Part shown: in pieces, positions 9,546 through 20,135 of the stretch | Layout of the letters: each line of letters starts with the position of its first letter | Position numbering within the stretch: the stretch's first letter is position 1 | Virus record (IMG/VR): IMGVR_UViG_3300037245_002917 | Location: 1 to 20,321 of that record | Origin: a virus | Direction: 5' to 3' (one strand) | DNA: 20,321 nucleotides | Program-made: the position numbers and the translations under genes | The notes under the pieces: generated by a model | What the model was told of the DNA's origin: nothing | Seen by the model: the letters and a program-made list of their open reading frames with translations, nothing else | The model's database searches: none

Positions 9546-9785
9546 TTATCTAAGTGGTTGATGAGTCTGGAACTTACGGCCACACGAACTTTTTTTACAA
9601 AAATAATACCGTATTTTCACATTTCCCCTGGTTGGCGTTCCATATTGCTCGTATTCGCTAGCCCCACACCACGGACATTTAAGCGGCGGCGGCAGGTATA
9701 TCACCCCCGTTTTGCGACGTGACCTGGCCCGCTTAGGTTGCTGGCCATCCAGCTCCGGCAAATCATCCAGCAATCCATTACTCAT
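9546..9785 (-). CDS. Small Zn-ribbon protein coupled to the large terminase
   Basis: A 79-residue protein whose ATG overlaps the terminase stop by four bases (ATGA). After a basic linker (QQPKRARSRRKTG) it carries a four-Cys zinc ribbon: CPWCG at about residues 38-42, and FCKKSSCGRKF at about 67-77. This resembles Ogr/Delta-type or transposase-type ribbons. It may bind DNA or assist packaging; no enzyme motif is present. Its first residues (LLDDLPELDG) repeat the last residues of the terminase because of a DNA duplication. Confidence 0.7.
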   Translation of the reverse strand: MSNGLLDDLPELDGQQPKRARSRRKTGVIYLPPPLKCPWCGASEYEQYGTPTRGNVKIRYYFCKKSSCGRKFQTHQPLR

Positions 9786-9817
9786 CCGCCAAGCTCCGGT
9801 AAACCATCCAGCAATTT
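9745..9817. repeat. Imperfect direct repeat spanning the terminase/Zn-ribbon junction
   Basis: Two 32-bp copies (9745-9776 and 9786-9817, offset 41 bp, about 27 of 32 identical) encode LLDDLPELDG at the start of the Zn-ribbon protein and LLDGLPELGG at the end of the terminase. The two copies are read in different frames relative to each other. Confidence 0.8.
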
Positions 9818-11881
9818 CGATCCCGTCGCCCTCGGCCGCCTGCGTTTTTTACGTTGCCCCCGCTTCTTCAGTCCCACCCAATCATTACGATTCCACCACC
9901 ATGCCGCCGCCGCATACACAGTAGCATCAAACTCATGGTTTCCTTTTCGTTTCACAACCCACCGAAAACTAACCCTGCCTCTCGTATCGGTAGTCTCCAC
10001 CCGCTCTTCGGCCGTCAGATGTTCGATAAACCACATCTCCGTATCACAATGCATCGATATATATAATTCGGGCGGCTCAGGCGGATCATTGAAATCCCAT
10101 TCGATATCGAACCGGGTATGCAGCTCTTCTTTGAAACTCGCCGTATGAATCTGCACATAAGACCGCCATTGGCTCTGCGGCAATTTGCGCCCTCTCGAAT
10201 CCGTCTTAATATACCCTTGCGATACCGGCCCATATTGCCGCGGCGTATCCGTAGCCAGCCCCTGGCACGCATAGCAATTCGCATGTCCCCTGCAAAAATC
10301 TTCGACTTCTGTAGTGCGATATCTGCTATCGATATACAGTGCCCCCACGGTTATCCGTCGATCCCCACCAGCGACCGGATAACTCATCGACGCCACAGCC
10401 TCCAGCGAGTTAATCGCCTCTGGCAGCACCCCATATTCGATCAAATGCCGGGCCCCATCTTCTCTCCAGACCCACACACAAAAATATATTTCCTTCTGTT
10501 GGACATCCGCCCCAGCCGTTATATACTCATATCCATCCGGCACAATCAGCGATTCCATATCCCGCCAGATATGTTTTACAAGTTTACTCTCATCGACCTT
10601 GAGCGTCCGCACCTTCCACGGCAGCGCCAGACAGCCATTATAGAACGTCTGTCGTTTCGACAGATCGTCCCCAATCTCCAGCCACTGTTTGGCAAGCTGC
10701 CCCCAACTTACCCACGGCACATACAACCTGGAGAAATGTATCCCCCACCGCCGATTCTTTACCCCACCGCCAACCAATTCATATTGCTTAGTCTCCCCTC
10801 CCGGCAACTCAATTTCCCACCGATCTCTAACATTGTCATCCTCGCGCACGCGGGGATCCATCTTCTCTTTTCTTCCCTTCGTGCCTTCCCCCGCACTGTC
10901 ATCCTCGCGCACGCGGGGATCCATCTTCTCTTCCTTTGCGCCTTTGCGCCTTTGCGCCTTTGCGGGATAATCTTTCTTTATTTCTCTCTGACCTCTGATC
11001 TCAATCTTCTGCCCTTTCGTCACCCTCTTATAATTCCCCAACATCCACCGCTTCTGACCATCCCGTATCTTCCCTTTGCACCCGATACACTCATACCACG
11101 TATTGCCCCTGGCCTCCTCCGGGCTCACACTCTTCCTCGTATCGGTCACCTTCGGCCATTCCACTTGTTTCCACACCAACTTCTGATAATGCCCGCACAG
11201 CGGACAAGGCAGATATATGTACCCCTGATCGGACAGTGCAAATTGTTTCAATATCGAATCCCCGGCCATCACCGGCGTCGACAGATCGATTATCTTATAC
11301 CTACCCTGCCCCATCACCCGCTCACCCGCCAGCTCGAGTGCTCCCGCCTCTTCATTTCGAGCACCTGTCCACTTCGCCGTCTCATCACGAAACACCAGGG
11401 GCGCCGATTTAGTGCCAAGCTGTCCCACACTTTTAGATCCTGCCAATGTCAGATTCCCGCCGAAAAAATCTATATCGAGTACAGGTCGCTTGACAGAGAC
11501 AGGAACTTTCTCACCCAGCGATTTACAACTATCCATCACCTTCTGAATCCGTTTACGCGATACGTACCTCGCATTAAAATCCGTATCGAGAAAGTAAAGT
11601 ATATTCTTCGGATTACAATCGATTATATAGCAGATAATAATCTGAATCGGCAGCGATTTCCCCGACTGCGCCGCCCCCACAATCACTATCTCATCGATAT
11701 CCCGATCCTCAAACGCCCTGAATATCTCAAGATGCCACGGTGTGATATCCGGATTGTATGGCCCCACCAGATCAACCCCCATATCTTTGGTAAGCACAAC
11801 ATTCCCCCGCGCCCACTCCTCGATCCCCACCCTCGGCCGCCACCGCCACGCCTCTCGCTCTCTATCCGTCCATGTTACCAT
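9782..11881 (-). CDS. Terminase large subunit, lambda GpA family
   Basis: A 699-residue protein from ATG 11881 (AGGA 8-11 nt upstream). The ATPase domain has Walker A GAAQSGKS (residues 69-76) and Walker B PLVFRDE (161-167). A GpA-type zinc site follows: CPLC (226-229) and CIGC (265-268). The second half has RLYVPWVSW (about 395) and nuclease-type strands ITAGADVQQKEIYFCVW and TVGALYIDSRYR, then a basic tail. It cuts concatemers and pumps DNA into the head through the portal. Residues ~300-350 are repeat-encoded (YPAKAQRRKG and two MDPRVREDD motifs) and sit in the linker before the nuclease domain, keeping the frame open. The family's usual length is about 600-650. Confidence 0.93.
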   Translation of the reverse strand: MVTWTDREREAWRWRPRVGIEEWARGNVVLTKDMGVDLVGPYNPDITPWHLEIFRAFEDRDIDEIVIVGAAQSGKSLPIQIIICYIIDCNPKNILYFLDTDFNARYVSRKRIQKVMDSCKSLGEKVPVSVKRPVLDIDFFGGNLTLAGSKSVGQLGTKSAPLVFRDETAKWTGARNEEAGALELAGERVMGQGRYKIIDLSTPVMAGDSILKQFALSDQGYIYLPCPLCGHYQKLVWKQVEWPKVTDTRKSVSPEEARGNTWYECIGCKGKIRDGQKRWMLGNYKRVTKGQKIEIRGQREIKKDYPAKAQRRKGAKEEKMDPRVREDDSAGEGTKGRKEKMDPRVREDDNVRDRWEIELPGGETKQYELVGGGVKNRRWGIHFSRLYVPWVSWGQLAKQWLEIGDDLSKRQTFYNGCLALPWKVRTLKVDESKLVKHIWRDMESLIVPDGYEYITAGADVQQKEIYFCVWVWREDGARHLIEYGVLPEAINSLEAVASMSYPVAGGDRRITVGALYIDSRYRTTEVEDFCRGHANCYACQGLATDTPRQYGPVSQGYIKTDSRGRKLPQSQWRSYVQIHTASFKEELHTRFDIEWDFNDPPEPPELYISMHCDTEMWFIEHLTAEERVETTDTRGRVSFRWVVKRKGNHEFDATVYAAAAWWWNRNDWVGLKKRGQRKKRRRPRATGSKLLDGLPELGG
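10833..10985. repeat. In-frame R1-R1-R3 insertion inside the terminase gene
   Basis: Two R1 copies (10834-10870, 10897-10932; stem CTCGCG...GCGGGG) and one R3 block (10932-10985; four CTTTGCGCC-type units then GGGATAATCTTTCTTTATT) lie within the terminase coding sequence. About 150 nt is added without a stop, encoding MDPRVREDD twice and YPAKAQRRKG. Confidence 0.88.
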
Positions 11882-12058
11882 CTATGATTTCCTGTCCAAC
11901 ATTTCTCCGCATCTTTTTATTATTTTCTCCTGTTCAACTTCCAATTTTGCATTCTCAACTTTCAATTTCGAAATGGTTTCTTCTGTTTTGAACAAAAGCC
12001 CAAAACACAAACAAAAATAACATATCCAAAAAATAGTCACCACAAAATCAAACATCAT
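11882..12058 (-). CDS. Small membrane/coiled-coil protein (58 aa) upstream of terminase
   Basis: ATG 12058 (a second ATG follows) has GGAG 4 nt upstream (7 nt to the second ATG). The frame ends in TAG abutting the terminase ATG with no spacer. Residues 3-23 (FDFVVTIFWICYFCLCFGLLF) form one transmembrane segment. The rest is a charged heptad-like helix (TEETISKLKVENAKLEVEQEKIIKRC). The layout resembles small holin-accessory or spanin-like proteins, but it is too short to assign. Start, SD, junction and codon pattern support a real gene. Confidence 0.65.
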   Translation of the reverse strand: MMFDFVVTIFWICYFCLCFGLLFKTEETISKLKVENAKLEVEQEKIIKRCGEMLDRKS

Positions 12059-14056: not shown

Positions 14057-14272
14057 TCGCCGACAATCGACGAAAGGAAGTCCTGGACTTATTTATCGCG
14101 GCTATCCGCCGCCCCGTCGATCTCCAATTGTCATCCTCGCGCACGCGGGGATCCATCTTCTCTTCTCTGCGCCTTTTCTTCCTTAGCGCCTTTGCGGGAA
14201 AATCTTTCTTCATTTCTTTTTGCCACTTATCAGGCTGTGGCCCTTGCCACTTAGGCTCTGCCCCTTGGCAGT
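14057..14272. repeat. Composite repeat cassette R4-R1-R3-R2-R2
   Basis: R4 at 14057-14130 (ATCGACG 14066-14072 pairs CGTCGAT 14115-14121; AAGTCCTGGACTT palindrome; GCGGC/GCCGC). R1 at 14129-14165. R3 at 14168-14215. R2 at 14232-14251 (GTGGC/GCCAC) and 14252-14272 (CTGCC/GGCAG). The order is the same as at 12.1-12.3 kb. The last R2 overlaps the stop of the Gp37 gene. No gene is seen in 13959-14250. Confidence 0.9.
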
Positions 14273-15213: not shown

Positions 15214-15227
15214 AATTCATCTCCAAT

Positions 15228-15339
15228 TGTCATCCTCAACTACTCTGTCATCCCCGACTCGATCGGGGATCCATCTTATCTTCTCTGCGCCTTTTCTACC
15301 TTAGCGCCTTTGCGCCTTTGCGGGAAAATCTTTCTTCAT
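15228..15339. repeat. Partial R1, full R1 and R3
   Basis: A truncated TGTCATCCTCAACTACTC (15228-15244) is followed by a full R1 (15245-15281; CCCCGA...TCGGGG) and an R3 block (15285-15339). This fills the gap between the methyltransferase and Gp37 genes. The SD of the Gp37 gene lies directly at its left end. Confidence 0.88.
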
Positions 15340-16403
15340 TTCATTCCCATCAACAATTCAAACGCCTCCCTCGCACAGCTCGGCACTACGGCGTTTCCAA
15401 GATTTCTAAGTCTGTCCACCCTAAAGGGTACCCCATCAGCCACTCGACCCACGTCGGGTTCAACAACCCAGCTTGAGATTCCGCCAGGCTCATCCCGTTT
15501 TTCCGCCCTCTCTGAGCCTGTCTTTTCCCTTTGCCGCTGCGTGAATCCCTTGCCGTTACCGTCGGCCATGTCTGTACCGCCAACCCCAGTGGCTTGCCCC
15601 CCTGTTTGTACTGAGCCGTTCTGGTCCCTTCCGATGCCCTCGGCGTCGGCAACATTTTCGCATGCGGTCCCCGCCCCTCCATCTCCAATACCTTTCCCGT
15701 CAATGTCCGGCCCGAGTTCGGGCCCACTCTGCCCTTGTCCGGCTTGCCGCAAAACCCCGCCGCATCCATCACCGTCGCGGTAGGCCACATCTGCCCCCGC
15801 GCCGCCCCCACCAGCGTTTGCCCCCGCTTGCCATCCGGTTTGTTCGAGCCCTGCGTCGCCGCTGCTGCCGAAGGGGTAGGCAACGCACCACCACCGATCT
15901 CTCTTATGCGGAGCTCCCACCTCCTGAGCCGACAACATTCTCCATCTCGCATCATACCCGCAATCGGCCAGTTCCCCGAGCACAACCGCAAGTGCTCCTT
16001 TCGTGATGCCCCGCACATTCTCCAGAAACACAATTCGCGGTCTCGCCATGCGAATAATTCGCATCTGTTGAAAGAAGAGTTCTGACTGTTTCCCTTTGAT
16101 CCCGGCTCTCTTTCCTGCAGAGCTGATATCCTGGCACGGAAAACCGCCCGTAACCGCTTGAATTTCTCCACCGGCTGACCACTCAATTTGTGCAAGTTCA
16201 GATTCTCCGAAAGTTCTAATATTACTCCAGACCGGCGCAACATCGAGATTACCTCTCGCCATCTCTTTCGCGAGAACCCCGACGGCGTATGGGTCGATCT
16301 CACAATAGCAAACGGTCCGGCACCACGGGCCCAGGGCAAGCGAGATCCCCCCGATTCCTGAGAACAAATCGAGCGTCCGCAATCTGTCGGCACCATCAAC
16401 CAT
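15336..16403 (-). CDS. DNA (cytosine-5) methyltransferase
   Basis: A 355-residue C5-methyltransferase. Motif I is DLFSGIGG (12-19), motif IV GGFPCQDIS (86-94, catalytic Cys90), motif VI ENVRG (128-132) and motif VIII APHKRDRWW (164-172). Motif X, RLRNLGNAVVP (331-341), closes the SAM fold. The target-recognition region (~180-310) is a Gly/Ala/Asp-rich, low-complexity segment of the kind common in phage enzymes. It would methylate cytosine in a short site and protect phage DNA from restriction. ATG 16403 is 11 nt from AGGAG; a +1-frame ATG at 16408 is spaced better. The 3' half overlaps a conserved-looking second frame. No partner restriction endonuclease is seen. Confidence 0.93.
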   Translation of the reverse strand: MVDGADRLRTLDLFSGIGGISLALGPWCRTVCYCEIDPYAVGVLAKEMARGNLDVAPVWSNIRTFGESELAQIEWSAGGEIQAVTGGFPCQDISSAGKRAGIKGKQSELFFQQMRIIRMARPRIVFLENVRGITKGALAVVLGELADCGYDARWRMLSAQEVGAPHKRDRWWCVAYPFGSSGDAGLEQTGWQAGANAGGGGAGADVAYRDGDGCGGVLRQAGQGQSGPELGPDIDGKGIGDGGAGTACENVADAEGIGRDQNGSVQTGGQATGVGGTDMADGNGKGFTQRQREKTGSERAEKRDEPGGISSWVVEPDVGRVADGVPFRVDRLRNLGNAVVPSCAREAFELLMGMK

Positions 16404-16408
16404 GTCAT
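15386..16408 (-). other. Overlapping +1-frame ORF with methyltransferase C-terminal motifs
   Basis: From ATG 16408 (AGGAG at 6 nt) a 340-residue frame runs through the C5-methyltransferase gene. Its first half looks like a shadow. From about 15980 to the stop it carries motifs known from the C-terminal region of a second class of phage C5-methyltransferases: WPIAGMMRDG, GGGALPTPSA, WPTATVMDAAG, MLPTPRASEGTR, WPTVTARDSRSG and LNPTWVEWLMGYPLGWTDLE. It could be an alternative C-terminus reached by a +1 frameshift, a separate protein, or a remnant. Expression is unproven. Confidence 0.4.
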
Positions 16409-16435
16409 TTTAGTCTCCTGATTTCTTATCTTCTC

Positions 16436-16583
16436 TGTCATCCTCGCGAAAGCAGGGATCCATCTTCGTTTATTAGGCAGTGGCCCTTGCCACTCCGGTC
16501 GCCGACAATCGACGAAAGGAAGTGCTGGACGTTATTTATCGCGGCTTTCCGCCGCCCCGTCGATCTCCAATTGTCATCCTCGA
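16436..16583. repeat. R1-R2-R4-partial R1 cluster
   Basis: R1 16436-16470 (one stem base changed, GCAGGG). R2 16475-16493. R4 16500-16571 (ATCGACG 16508-16514; CGTCGAT 16558-16564; GCGGC-TTTCC-GCCGC). A partial R1 begins at 16572. No gene is evident between the TerS stop and the methyltransferase start. Confidence 0.88.
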
Positions 16584-17236
16584 CTACTCTGTCATCCCCG
16601 GCTCGATCGGGGATCCATCTTCTATTTTCGTACCATTGCCTTTTAGTTGGCACCGGCCCTTGCCGGTCAGGCTGTGGCCCTTGCCACCCTCGCCACCAAA
16701 CCGCCTACAGCACAGCTCAACTTCCTCATCGACGATCTTCTCGGCCCCCGGAACATCGATCCGCCCTGCGATCCGCCTGCCCAGCATCTCCATCCCGCTC
16801 TTAACCGCCCCAATCTTCGCAATCGATTTTCGTTCCACTTCCTTCCGATCAACCAGCAATCCCTTCATCCTCTCCGCCCGCATCCGCACCAGCTCGGCCC
16901 TATGTTGCCTCTCATCAGCAGAATATTTCTTCAATCGCCTGTCATCGAGCTGTTGAGCCGCTATCTCTTTCTTCAGCCGATCAACTTCCCACTGTCGCAC
17001 AACCACCAGATCATATTTATTCTGCCCAAGTTTCGGCATCCCTTCAACTAAGGCCCAATGCCTCACCGTCCGCTGAGCAGTACAAAAGTACCTCGCCAGC
17101 CCAGCCGTATCCACAATCAGCGCCCCCGGGCCCAGGCTCGAGCCTGCGCCCCCGACTTTCTTCCCGGTTGCCTTCTTCTTTTTTTTTACGGCGACCTTTT
17201 TCTTCTTAATCTTTTTTTTTTACTCACCATCATCAT
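16584..17236 (-). CDS. Terminase small subunit, Nu1-like (start requires a frameshift at A10)
   Basis: The intact frame (open from 17219) encodes a Lys-rich tail (KKKIKKKKVAVKKKKKATGKK). A Nu1-like winged-helix follows (DTAGLARYFCTAQRTVRHWALVEGMPKLGQNKYDLVVVRQWEVDRL), then a helical region (DERQHRAELVRMRAERMKGLLVDRKEVERKSIAKIG). It binds the packaging site and recruits the large terminase. The only ATG upstream (17236, ATGA overlap with the previous gene) reads MMMVSKKKRLRRKRSP and stops, unless the ribosome or polymerase slips -1 in the A10 run at 17212-17221. A GTG at 17114 would instead give 176 residues lacking the basic tail. The C-terminal ~30 residues (from GKGHS) are R2/R1-encoded. 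Confidence 0.8.
16590..16687. repeat. R1 and two R2 hairpins inside the 3' end of terS
   Basis: R1 16590-16625 (CCCCG...CGGGG). R2 variants at 16652-16667 (ACCGG...CCGGT) and 16670-16687 (GTGGC-CCTT-GCCAC). They encode the last ~30 residues of the small terminase frame. Confidence 0.85.
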
Positions 17237-17565: not shown

Positions 17566-17595
17566 AGCTTTTTCCTTTCCTAAAAACAAAACCAT

Positions 17596-17910
17596 TGTCA
17601 TCCTCGCGAAAGCGGGGATCCATCTTCTATTATTTGGCAGTGGCCCTTGCCACTCCGATCGCCAACAATCGACGAAAGGAAGTCCTGGACTTATTTATCG
17701 TGGCTATCCGCCGCCCCGTCGATCTCCAATTGTCATCCCTGCGCAGGCAGGGATCCATCTTCGTTTGTCATCCTCGCGAAAGCGGGGATCCATCTTCTCT
17801 TCCTCTTCCCTAGTGCCTAATGCCTTCTTCCAAATTGTCATCCCCGACCACGATCGGGGATCCATCTTTTTCTTTTATTGCCTATTGCCTGGTGCCTAAT
17901 GCCTTCTTCC
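17596..17910. repeat. Repeat cluster in the 320-nt gap after the adenine methyltransferase
   Basis: R1 17596-17630, R2 17636-17653, R4 17659-17730 (ATCGACG 17668-17674; CGTCGAT 17717-17723; AAGTCCTGGACTT palindrome), then R1 at 17731-17764, 17766-17802 and 17836-17870. GTGCCTAATGCCTTCTTCC occurs twice (17813-17831, 17892-17910). No gene was found in this gap. Confidence 0.9.
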
Positions 17911-17923
17911 CTGTTTCCTCTAC

Positions 17924-18862
17924 TCATCCAAACAACCCCTTTTCTTTTGGAGCCAGCGATTCCCCATTAATCAACAAAACCTCCGGCGCTTCAGTCTTTT
18001 TGTATCCCCTTGCGCCCCCGTTCGCTATTCCCTTCATCCTATATACCTTCCTTTTAGTCCACCGGCTTGAAGGATAAAGCCCATCCACCCGCTCATCATC
18101 ATAATAGCTAACGATCACCCTCGCCTTTTTGAACCGTCCCAACAACTCCGCCAACCGATTATGATCATCCTGGCCAAATTCATGTTCATATTTCCCGCTT
18201 CCACTTCCACCCGTCCGCGCCCCACCCATCATATACGGTGGATCCACATACATCGCCAGCATGGGACTATCTTCCACCTTCTCGATCAACTCGAATCCAT
18301 CCATATTCATAATATTCACGCGACGCAATCTTTCATGCCAAGCTCTTATCGAATCAACCGCGCTGGCAAACCTAACTCCCCCTGATCCCCCACCAGGTGT
18401 CCATCGCTTGCTAGGTTGATGATTTTGTCGCTTCGTTCCAGACGTTCCGTTCCTGCCAATCCAAGATACGACAAAGTATATATACGCCCTTTCGATATGT
18501 TCATCTGCCACATCTTTAATCGTTTTCGGCGGCTCGATATCCCTGCCCAGGAATTCCACCTTACATTCCTTAAATATATCTTCTGAACACAAAGTCCGAT
18601 ACAGCCTATTGTAGAGTTCCTCCCACCTATCCGATGCAATCACCCTGGCCAGGTTAATCAAATCCCCATGCAGATCGTTCACGATATCATGCGAACACGG
18701 TGGTTTCGCCAGCAGCACCGCCATCGACCCACAAAACGGCTCTACATACATCGAGTGCGCCCCCAGCTCCGAAACAATAGTAGGCGCCAACGTCCGCTTC
18801 CCCCCAAACCACGCCACCAGCGACCCAATCTTCATTTCCTGTTTCTCAATCACATCTTTCAA
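17924..18862 (-). CDS. DNA N6-adenine methyltransferase, D12 class
   Basis: A 312-residue enzyme. The N-terminal AWFGGKRTLAPTIV (17-30) is the D12-class 'GGK' segment. VEPFCGSMAVL (40-50) is the SAM-binding motif I, with D63 shortly after. The catalytic DPPY is at 207-210. The middle (GTKRQNHQPSKRWTPGGGSGGVRF) is a Gly/basic target-recognition part. It would methylate adenine in a short site, presumably for protection from host restriction. I chose TTG 18862, which overlaps the upstream stop in TTGA and has AAGGTG ~5 nt upstream. ATG 18835 (MKIGSL) is the alternative. Confidence 0.92.
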   Translation of the reverse strand: MKDVIEKQEMKIGSLVAWFGGKRTLAPTIVSELGAHSMYVEPFCGSMAVLLAKPPCSHDIVNDLHGDLINLARVIASDRWEELYNRLYRTLCSEDIFKECKVEFLGRDIEPPKTIKDVADEHIERAYIYFVVSWIGRNGTSGTKRQNHQPSKRWTPGGGSGGVRFASAVDSIRAWHERLRRVNIMNMDGFELIEKVEDSPMLAMYVDPPYMMGGARTGGSGSGKYEHEFGQDDHNRLAELLGRFKKARVIVSYYDDERVDGLYPSSRWTKRKVYRMKGIANGGARGYKKTEAPEVLLINGESLAPKEKGLFG

Positions 18863-19704
18863 ATCATCACCTTATGTTTCGCCTTCATAATCGCCGGCCG
18901 CGACCATTCTCTAACCAGTTTTCTCCACTCCGGATCCCGCACTACTGCATCCCAACCACCGCCACCCTCGAACAACATAGCAAACGGCATCAATCCCACT
19001 TTCCAAACCTCCTCCAACCGCGCAAGCGCCTGGCCGATCGTATCATCCTGATAGCCCACCAACACATAGCACCGCAGTTTCTCCCGGTTATACCCCACCT
19101 CTCGCAGCATCTCCGCGGCCCTGACCACACAGGGCCACTGCCCCCGATGATCATAGGCCAAAAATATTTGCTTCACCCGAATACTATTAAGCAATTCGAT
19201 ATGCCAATCATTCAGTAACCTCGCATCCAGCCCACCCGTAAACGATGCCCCCCTCCTTTGTTTCCGCAGCATCTCAAACACTGCTGTGATATGTTCCTTC
19301 GGCGCCGCCAGCAGATTATTATCCAGCACATTATTACCTTCCACAATCGCCAGAGTCCGCAGCTCCCCTTCCCGCTGTGGAACAAAACACCACGGACACA
19401 GATTCGTGCACCCTCGAGTAGTTATCACATATCCCTTTTTCAGATATCTCCCAGCCACAAACTCCCCGCCCCTGTCGTTGTATGCCGGCCCGCCAAGTGA
19501 AACCTTACCCGGGTAATACGCCTCCCACGCCCGCCCCAATCTTTCCGCTTCCCACATATCCCACGTAAACGTACAGCTCACATGCACCTCATCGACCGCC
19601 GGCAGGAAATCCGGAAACACCGGGGCCCCCACAAACGCCATCTCATCATCCGGCGTCGCCTTCGTCGATCGCGGAAACACCCGTATTATCTTTTTATTTT
19701 TCAT
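18859..19704 (-). CDS. Phage radical SAM protein
   Basis: A 281-residue protein from ATG 19704 (GGGGGAG ~4 nt upstream, ATGA overlap with the previous stop). The radical SAM cluster motif is RGCTNLCPWC (Cys99, 103, 106; Cx3Cx2C). GPAYNDRGGEF lies just before it and FTGGLDARLL, IFLAYDH and CYVLVGYQ in the later barrel strands. The first ~70 residues (IRVFPRSTKATPDDEMAFVGAP ... VDEVHVSCTFTWD) resemble a degenerate cobalamin-binding-like domain. The substrate is unknown. Its placement beside two DNA methyltransferases and Gp37 suggests nucleic-acid modification, but that is inference. Confidence 0.85.
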   Translation of the reverse strand: MKNKKIIRVFPRSTKATPDDEMAFVGAPVFPDFLPAVDEVHVSCTFTWDMWEAERLGRAWEAYYPGKVSLGGPAYNDRGGEFVAGRYLKKGYVITTRGCTNLCPWCFVPQREGELRTLAIVEGNNVLDNNLLAAPKEHITAVFEMLRKQRRGASFTGGLDARLLNDWHIELLNSIRVKQIFLAYDHRGQWPCVVRAAEMLREVGYNREKLRCYVLVGYQDDTIGQALARLEEVWKVGLMPFAMLFEGGGGWDAVVRDPEWRKLVREWSRPAIMKAKHKVMI

Positions 19705-20135
19705 CCACTCCCCCACTGAAACCACCCGGCTATCGCCAAGCCAATAAATATCACATCCCTCACCGCCATCCCCCATAACCGCGCCCGCAGATGATACACC
19801 AGGCAGATTACATTAGAGACAAACCAAACCGGAAAGCACCATCGAATCCGCGCATTATTAAGCAGCACCCCACCCACCGCCAGAGCCGTAGCCACCAACT
19901 GCCCCCCCTCAACCAACCCCAATCTCACCCACCGCCGCCACCCCCAATATCCACAACAATTCGGCAATTCAAACTTAACCCGAACACGATTCATCCCTCC
20001 GCATTCCACACATTCTTCATCGATATCCACTTCCCCGCAAAGCTTATTCCTATCCGCAAAACACCGCTGCGCCCACTGAGACCCTGGCACAATTTTCCCT
20101 TGCCGTTTGGTTTTTCCATTTGCCATCTTTGCCAT
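19701..20135 (-). CDS. Zn-binding / PnuC-like small membrane protein
   Basis: A 144-residue protein (MAKMANGKTKRQGK...). The basic N-terminus and Cys pairs (ECVECGGMNR; NCCGYWGW) suggest a small zinc-binding region at about residues 25-55. The C-terminal half has two or three hydrophobic segments (GGQLVATALAVGGVLL; FPVWFVSNVICLVYHLRARLWGMAVRDVIFIGLAIAGWFQW). Their F..W..SN..cl.Y........a..d..f......G...W pattern resembles the short PnuC-like phage membrane proteins. A vitamin-transport role is not established for such short forms. ATG 20135 has GGAG only 2 nt away, and ATG 20126 is an alternative start. Confidence 0.6.
   Translation of the reverse strand: MAKMANGKTKRQGKIVPGSQWAQRCFADRNKLCGEVDIDEECVECGGMNRVRVKFELPNCCGYWGWRRWVRLGLVEGGQLVATALAVGGVLLNNARIRWCFPVWFVSNVICLVYHLRARLWGMAVRDVIFIGLAIAGWFQWGSG

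Follow-up and report, generated by a model that had tools for sequence, protein, structure and literature searches.

How many proteins does the methyltransferase gene of this phage encode, and which of them recognizes the DNA target? The window (the whole 20,321-nt stretch analysed, virus record IMGVR_UViG_3300037245_002917) is a fragment of a tailed phage, in which the major head protein, the maturation protease, the portal and both terminase subunits are recognisable. On its minus strand, frame A gives a 355-aa C5-cytosine methyltransferase, while a second frame, B, displaced by +1, is open for 351 codons (15386-16441). The earlier note on this DNA pointed to the peptides WPIAGMMRDG, LPTPRAS, WPTVTARDSRSG and LNPTWVEWLMGYPLGWTDLE in frame B, all of which are there, and placed the overlap at 15386-15980. 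The overlap is real, but those positions take in only its C-terminal part, for it spans nearly the entire methyltransferase gene. I propose that the locus very probably encodes a two-subunit C5-cytosine DNA methyltransferase, with an alpha subunit read from A and a nested beta subunit read from B, a proposal built from sequence comparison. The features on which the argument turns are these:

15336-16403, minus strand: frame A, the proposed alpha subunit, with the C5-methyltransferase large domain (motifs I-VIII), a linker and motif X
15386-16408, minus strand: frame B (+1), the proposed beta subunit, with a putative start at ATG 16408
16415-16419, minus strand: AGGAG, separated by 6 nt from the ATG of B and by 11 nt from that of A, read from the sequence
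16347-16373, minus strand: motif I of A (LDLFSGIGG), from alignment A1 and the sequence
16131-16145, minus strand: motif IV of A (GFPCQ), which holds the catalytic cysteine and is invariant in alignment A1
15888-15914, minus strand: APHKRDRWW, A's motif VIII region, where alignments A1 and A4 both show conservation
15464-15857, minus strand: target-recognition region, conserved in B as judged by substitutions at each codon position, disordered in the model of A
15413-15463, minus strand: putative motif IX in frame B (LNPTWVEWLMGYPLGWT), from the peak of a score matrix and codon fixation in A
15381-15401, minus strand: motif X in frame A (LGNAVVP), from the sequence and a confident helix in the model

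The motif X noticed earlier at the end of frame A (RLRNLGNAVVP) is in place, as is the AGGAG 6 nt ahead of the +1-frame ATG at 16408; A's own ATG, at 16403, lies 5 nt beyond that of B. By its motifs, frame A belongs with the C5-methyltransferases: I, IV (PCQ), VI, VIII and X are present and IX is absent. It matches PF00145 at 2.1e-34, restricted to profile positions 2-161 of 324, and phrog_363 with an E-value of 1.5e-61. Frame B, over residues 83-347, matches positions 24-283 of 329 in the profile of phrog_1008 (E 1.7e-27).

Is frame B a protein at all? It might be supposed that conserved residues and codon bias in A produce its motifs as a by-product, and similarity to the B profile is by itself no proof otherwise: permuted A genes still reach about 65 bits. 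The observed score, however, exceeds that of every one of the 20 permutations in each of the 86 genes. Then there is the matter of stop codons. Synonymous codons of A were shuffled within each gene and stops counted in frame B from the PCQ motif to motif X, a procedure that leaves codon-pair effects out and whose controls are calibrated. Homologues were gathered by conserved A peptides only, because choosing by B was to be avoided. The gene in the window has no B stops where 2.8 are expected (p 0.02), and 78 phage homologues selected by A have 46 in place of 393, as against 946 in place of 945.7 in their +2 control frame. Among cellular C5-methyltransferases lacking a B match, 21 in number, B-frame stops are not depleted (236 versus 220.8 expected), and nor are they in 329 flanking genes (4873 versus 4974). 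The depletion starts about 10 codons before PCQ and ends some 15-20 codons beyond A's EPxVGRV. From -10 to +100 codons around PCQ, 73 of 74 genes are free of stops in B (4.0 expected), and B is open still further towards A's start in 51 of 75 A-selected genes, the window's included (29.7 expected). Permutation with calibrated controls rules out an artefact of codon bias and shows, at the level of codons, that both frames are kept open by selection. The by-product reading, contradicted as well by the wobble pattern of B taken up below, is scarcely credible, and the suspicion of overprinting that the earlier note voiced, both frames being meaningful, is borne out.

Which of the two proteins does selection act on, region by region? 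The first position of an A codon is the wobble position of B. One set of comparisons consisted of 25 pairs hand-picked from a similarity list, of which 18, those where the motif patterns were found, gave counts. In this set, differences at A's first, second and third codon positions numbered 26, 17 and 109 before B opens, 162, 78 and 255 from PCQ to motif VIII, 333, 84 and 58 from motif VIII to motif IX, and 5, 1 and 23 past the end of B. A second set, of 46 loci and 105 mutually non-independent pairs, agrees with the first in the core of the VIII-IX region (275, 76 and 70) and gives 113, 16 and 657 past B. Since A's first position is B's wobble position, these counts show purifying selection between motifs VIII and IX to be acting on B, not on A. 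Taken along the gene, they show constraint starting on A, moving to B and ending on A again. The window and its close relative L084 can be compared directly: within the recognition region, 6 of 9 differences alter A and not B, and outside it, 10 of 17 alter B and not A. The earlier note had allowed for free drift of frame B among relatives. B is not drifting freely; it is A's reading of the recognition region that, by these counts, drifts.

The AlphaFold2 model of A consists of a confident large domain up to residue 182, which matches M.HhaI (Foldseek 1.2e-12), a stretch with pLDDT of about 30 at residues 183-335, and a confident motif X helix. It is disordered exactly where the constraint sits in B. 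The model of B is poor (mean pLDDT 57), and little weight can be given to its best Foldseek match in a viral library, another phage protein named as a methyltransferase. Searches of Pfam and the PDB with B gave no significant match. Alignment of the B family to cellular enzymes by hhalign was not significant, the nine aligned columns falling at motif IX; with motif X included, the E-value is 0.0018 and the probability 15. The poor model of B and the lack of significant matches count against the two-subunit proposal.

Motif IX deserves a closer look. The most conserved part of B, LNPxWVEWLMGYPxGWT, is shaped like motif IX of C5-methyltransferases, cellular examples of which are RRLTPRECARLMGFPD. 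A score matrix for motif IX, built on the small base of four cellular sequences (two near-identical pairs), peaks at this site in 131 of 133 B proteins, where about 2 would be expected. Beneath the motif, the choice among synonymous codons of A is nearly fixed as B requires in genes selected by A: GTG in 39 of 39, GGT in 43 of 44 (background 0.12), GCT in 43 of 43 (background 0.14) and GGG in 42 of 44 (background 0.19). The best reading of the two frames is that B carries target recognition and motif IX, both absent from A. The idea in the earlier note that the two frames encode alternative methylase C-termini gives way here, as B holds the recognition region and the motif IX that A is without.

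How far does the arrangement extend? A scan of viral contigs with B left 594 relatives among the candidates kept, and at the first 20 loci examined the -1 frame was always an intact methyltransferase. Profile phrog_1008 matches 124 of 125 B proteins. The open frame of B lies fully within that of A in 153 of 160 cases, the others being L049, L187 and L199, where motif X is in B, and L060, L069, L212 and L241. No stand-alone B gene was found among the 160. Homologues of B, which the earlier note had suggested looking for, are many, and every strong one lies on an A gene. Among gammaproteobacteria, 19 of 274 genomes have a match to B, several of them weak or interrupted by stops. A tblastn search of plasmids with two B proteins gave no enterobacterial match and did not recover M.EcoHK31I.

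Might B be a separate protein of some other function, a regulator or an anti-restriction factor for example, that overlaps A incidentally? The empty searches of Pfam and the PDB would suit such a protein, but it would have to account for the motif IX that A is without, for loci where B runs on into motif X, and for no strong B match having been found away from an A gene. This seems very improbable.

In the two-subunit model, frame A would give rise to an alpha subunit responsible for cofactor binding and catalysis (motifs I-VIII), followed by a long disordered linker and, after it, motif X. From a start of its own, frame B would give rise to a beta subunit with the target-recognition region and motif IX, and the two would join into one enzyme, in the fashion of M.EcoHK31I. 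Separate translation of B and its association with alpha are what I infer from this division of motifs and constraint. The beta subunit may begin at ATG 16408. Combinations of a Shine-Dalgarno sequence and ATG are concentrated 25 to 11 codons ahead of PCQ in many loci and close to the start of A in others; the mean Shine-Dalgarno strength at ATGs of frame B is no higher than in the other frames, a further point against the proposal. As for the start of A, the stretch of L101 near 2490-2510 that was read has no ATG, GTG or TTG ahead of motif I in frame A, where an ATT after GAGGAGG may serve. The enzyme would modify phage or host DNA, probably shielding phage DNA from restriction.

The main rival to two subunits is a single chain made by programmed frameshifting: motifs I-VIII read in A, a shift to B for the recognition region and motif IX, and a return to A for motif X. 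Joined where the constraint switches, the frames yield the canonical order of motifs, and one shift would be enough at loci with motif X in B. Most loci, however, would require two. Nor does frameshifting need B to be kept free of stops starting some 10 codons ahead of PCQ, a good way upstream of motif VIII, or A to be open through the recognition region, as it is in most loci (partly by construction). I consider frameshifting unlikely, and judge a separate subunit the more likely product of frame B.

The motifs are not divided in the same way everywhere. With classes assigned by regular expressions, the main pattern fits 126 of 150 loci and 24 fit it incompletely; the same count gave no A-frame stops where 416 were expected, partly by construction, A having been chosen as the open frame that reaches the motif. 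In L049, L187, L199 and L291 (Streptomyces phage Samy), A stops shortly after motif VIII, and the recognition region and motifs IX and X are all in B, a layout that L090 resembles. In a clade made up of L177 and L294-L317, A holds motif IX as well as motif X. There B ends ahead of motif IX, the recognition region is still conserved in B, and the wobble pattern passes from A to B and returns to A at motif IX (4, 0 and 41 differences). In a tree of the large domain, whose root and cellular rows are unsure because of long branches, loci that keep IX and X in alpha group as a single clade (100/98), and those with X in beta are scattered over several places. A more distant C5 lineage, L384 (1413-2324), has a +1 frame B with a canonical-looking motif IX, RRMLPSEYEILQGFPEGWT. 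Its B has a sub-threshold match to PF00145 at profile positions 173-295 and its A matches positions 2-169; it may represent an independent occurrence of this layout.

How might such a family have arisen? I put at somewhat better than even the chance that this family of phage and prophage C5-methyltransferases arose by reciprocal overprinting. The halves of an ancestral single-chain enzyme would have come to lie in different frames, and each frame would have extended anew across the opposite half. Motifs IX and X, both small, would have moved between the subunits more than once, so that beta has recognition and IX, recognition with both IX and X, or recognition alone. The earlier note entertained the origin of one class wholly from the other. 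That does not fit: conservation follows A in motifs I-VIII and X and follows B in recognition and motif IX, and the two read through each other.

If the two-subunit model is right, then many orphan methyltransferase genes of phages encode two subunits of which one is normally annotated, and the annotated protein expressed alone would therefore lose activity or specificity. The model joins two protein families that are listed apart, phrog_363 and phrog_1008, and offers a large natural data set on long same-strand overlaps in double-stranded DNA phages. The origin of such overlaps becomes testable because each frame looks to be part old, part new. If reciprocal overprinting is true, target specificity would reside in a second subunit, separate and for the most part overlooked in gene annotation.

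The window has other features of some interest. Dispersed intergenic repeats with the core TGTCATCCTCGCGAAAGCGGGGATCCATCTTC occur at 14117-14165, 15216-15285, 16424-16629 and 17584-17897, and longer blocks, of 112 nt at most, are repeated as well. A second methyltransferase (phrog_56, 17924-18862) adjoins a radical SAM domain protein (phrog_9298, 18859-19776), both on the minus strand. A 589-aa open frame on the plus strand (10118-11887) runs antisense to the gene for the terminase large subunit (9782-11881).

There are precedents for some of this. One such two-frame enzyme is already known, M.EcoHK31I, whose small subunit is encoded in another frame within the gene for the large one. Lee, Kam and Shaw reportedly described it in 1995 as a C5-methyltransferase of two polypeptides. 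The arrangement described here appears to span a large and mostly unrecognised family of phage genes. No report of this two-frame family was found in the openly licensed literature, where absence is weak evidence. In M.EcoHK31I, motifs I-VIII and X are on the large subunit and motif IX is on the second polypeptide (PMC3404938). Judged by that layout, the window is similar: A has motifs I-VIII and X without IX, and motif IX is in a second frame whose product would be a polypeptide of its own. The two differ in that the recognition domain of M.EcoHK31I has been placed, by prediction, in the large subunit (PMC3404938), a point against the nested-beta reading, whereas the constraint on recognition in the window lies in the frame of the small subunit. 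M.AquI also consists of two polypeptides, divided between motifs VIII and IX (PMC3404938). The loci L049, L090, L187, L199 and L291 are like it, with IX and X on the second frame; the window is not, since its motif X remains in A.

In PHROGs, phrog_363 and phrog_1008 are separate families, both named DNA methyltransferase; here they are two frames of one gene. An annotated counterpart exists in Paenibacillus phage Shelly (NC_041909; L094:1816-2853), where gp56, which has a B match, is a +1 internal gene within the cytosine methyltransferase gp55, annotated with no function beyond 'DNA methyltransferase' and 'g55 internal gene'. Several sister phages have two methyltransferase features at the same place. 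In ShiLan, a homing insertion has left an HNH endonuclease hidden within a phage DNA methylase gene, in a frame other than the methylase's own (PMC11855218). A hidden HNH insertion was considered for the window and rejected, as B overlaps the enzyme's own conserved motifs and no HNH family is among its matches. The two cases share a phage DNA methylase gene that harbours a second protein out of its own frame, but here the overlapping frame appears to encode the recognition half of the enzyme itself. Set beside these systems, what is new is the breadth of the arrangement, the evidence for recognition in beta, and two further ways of partitioning the motifs.
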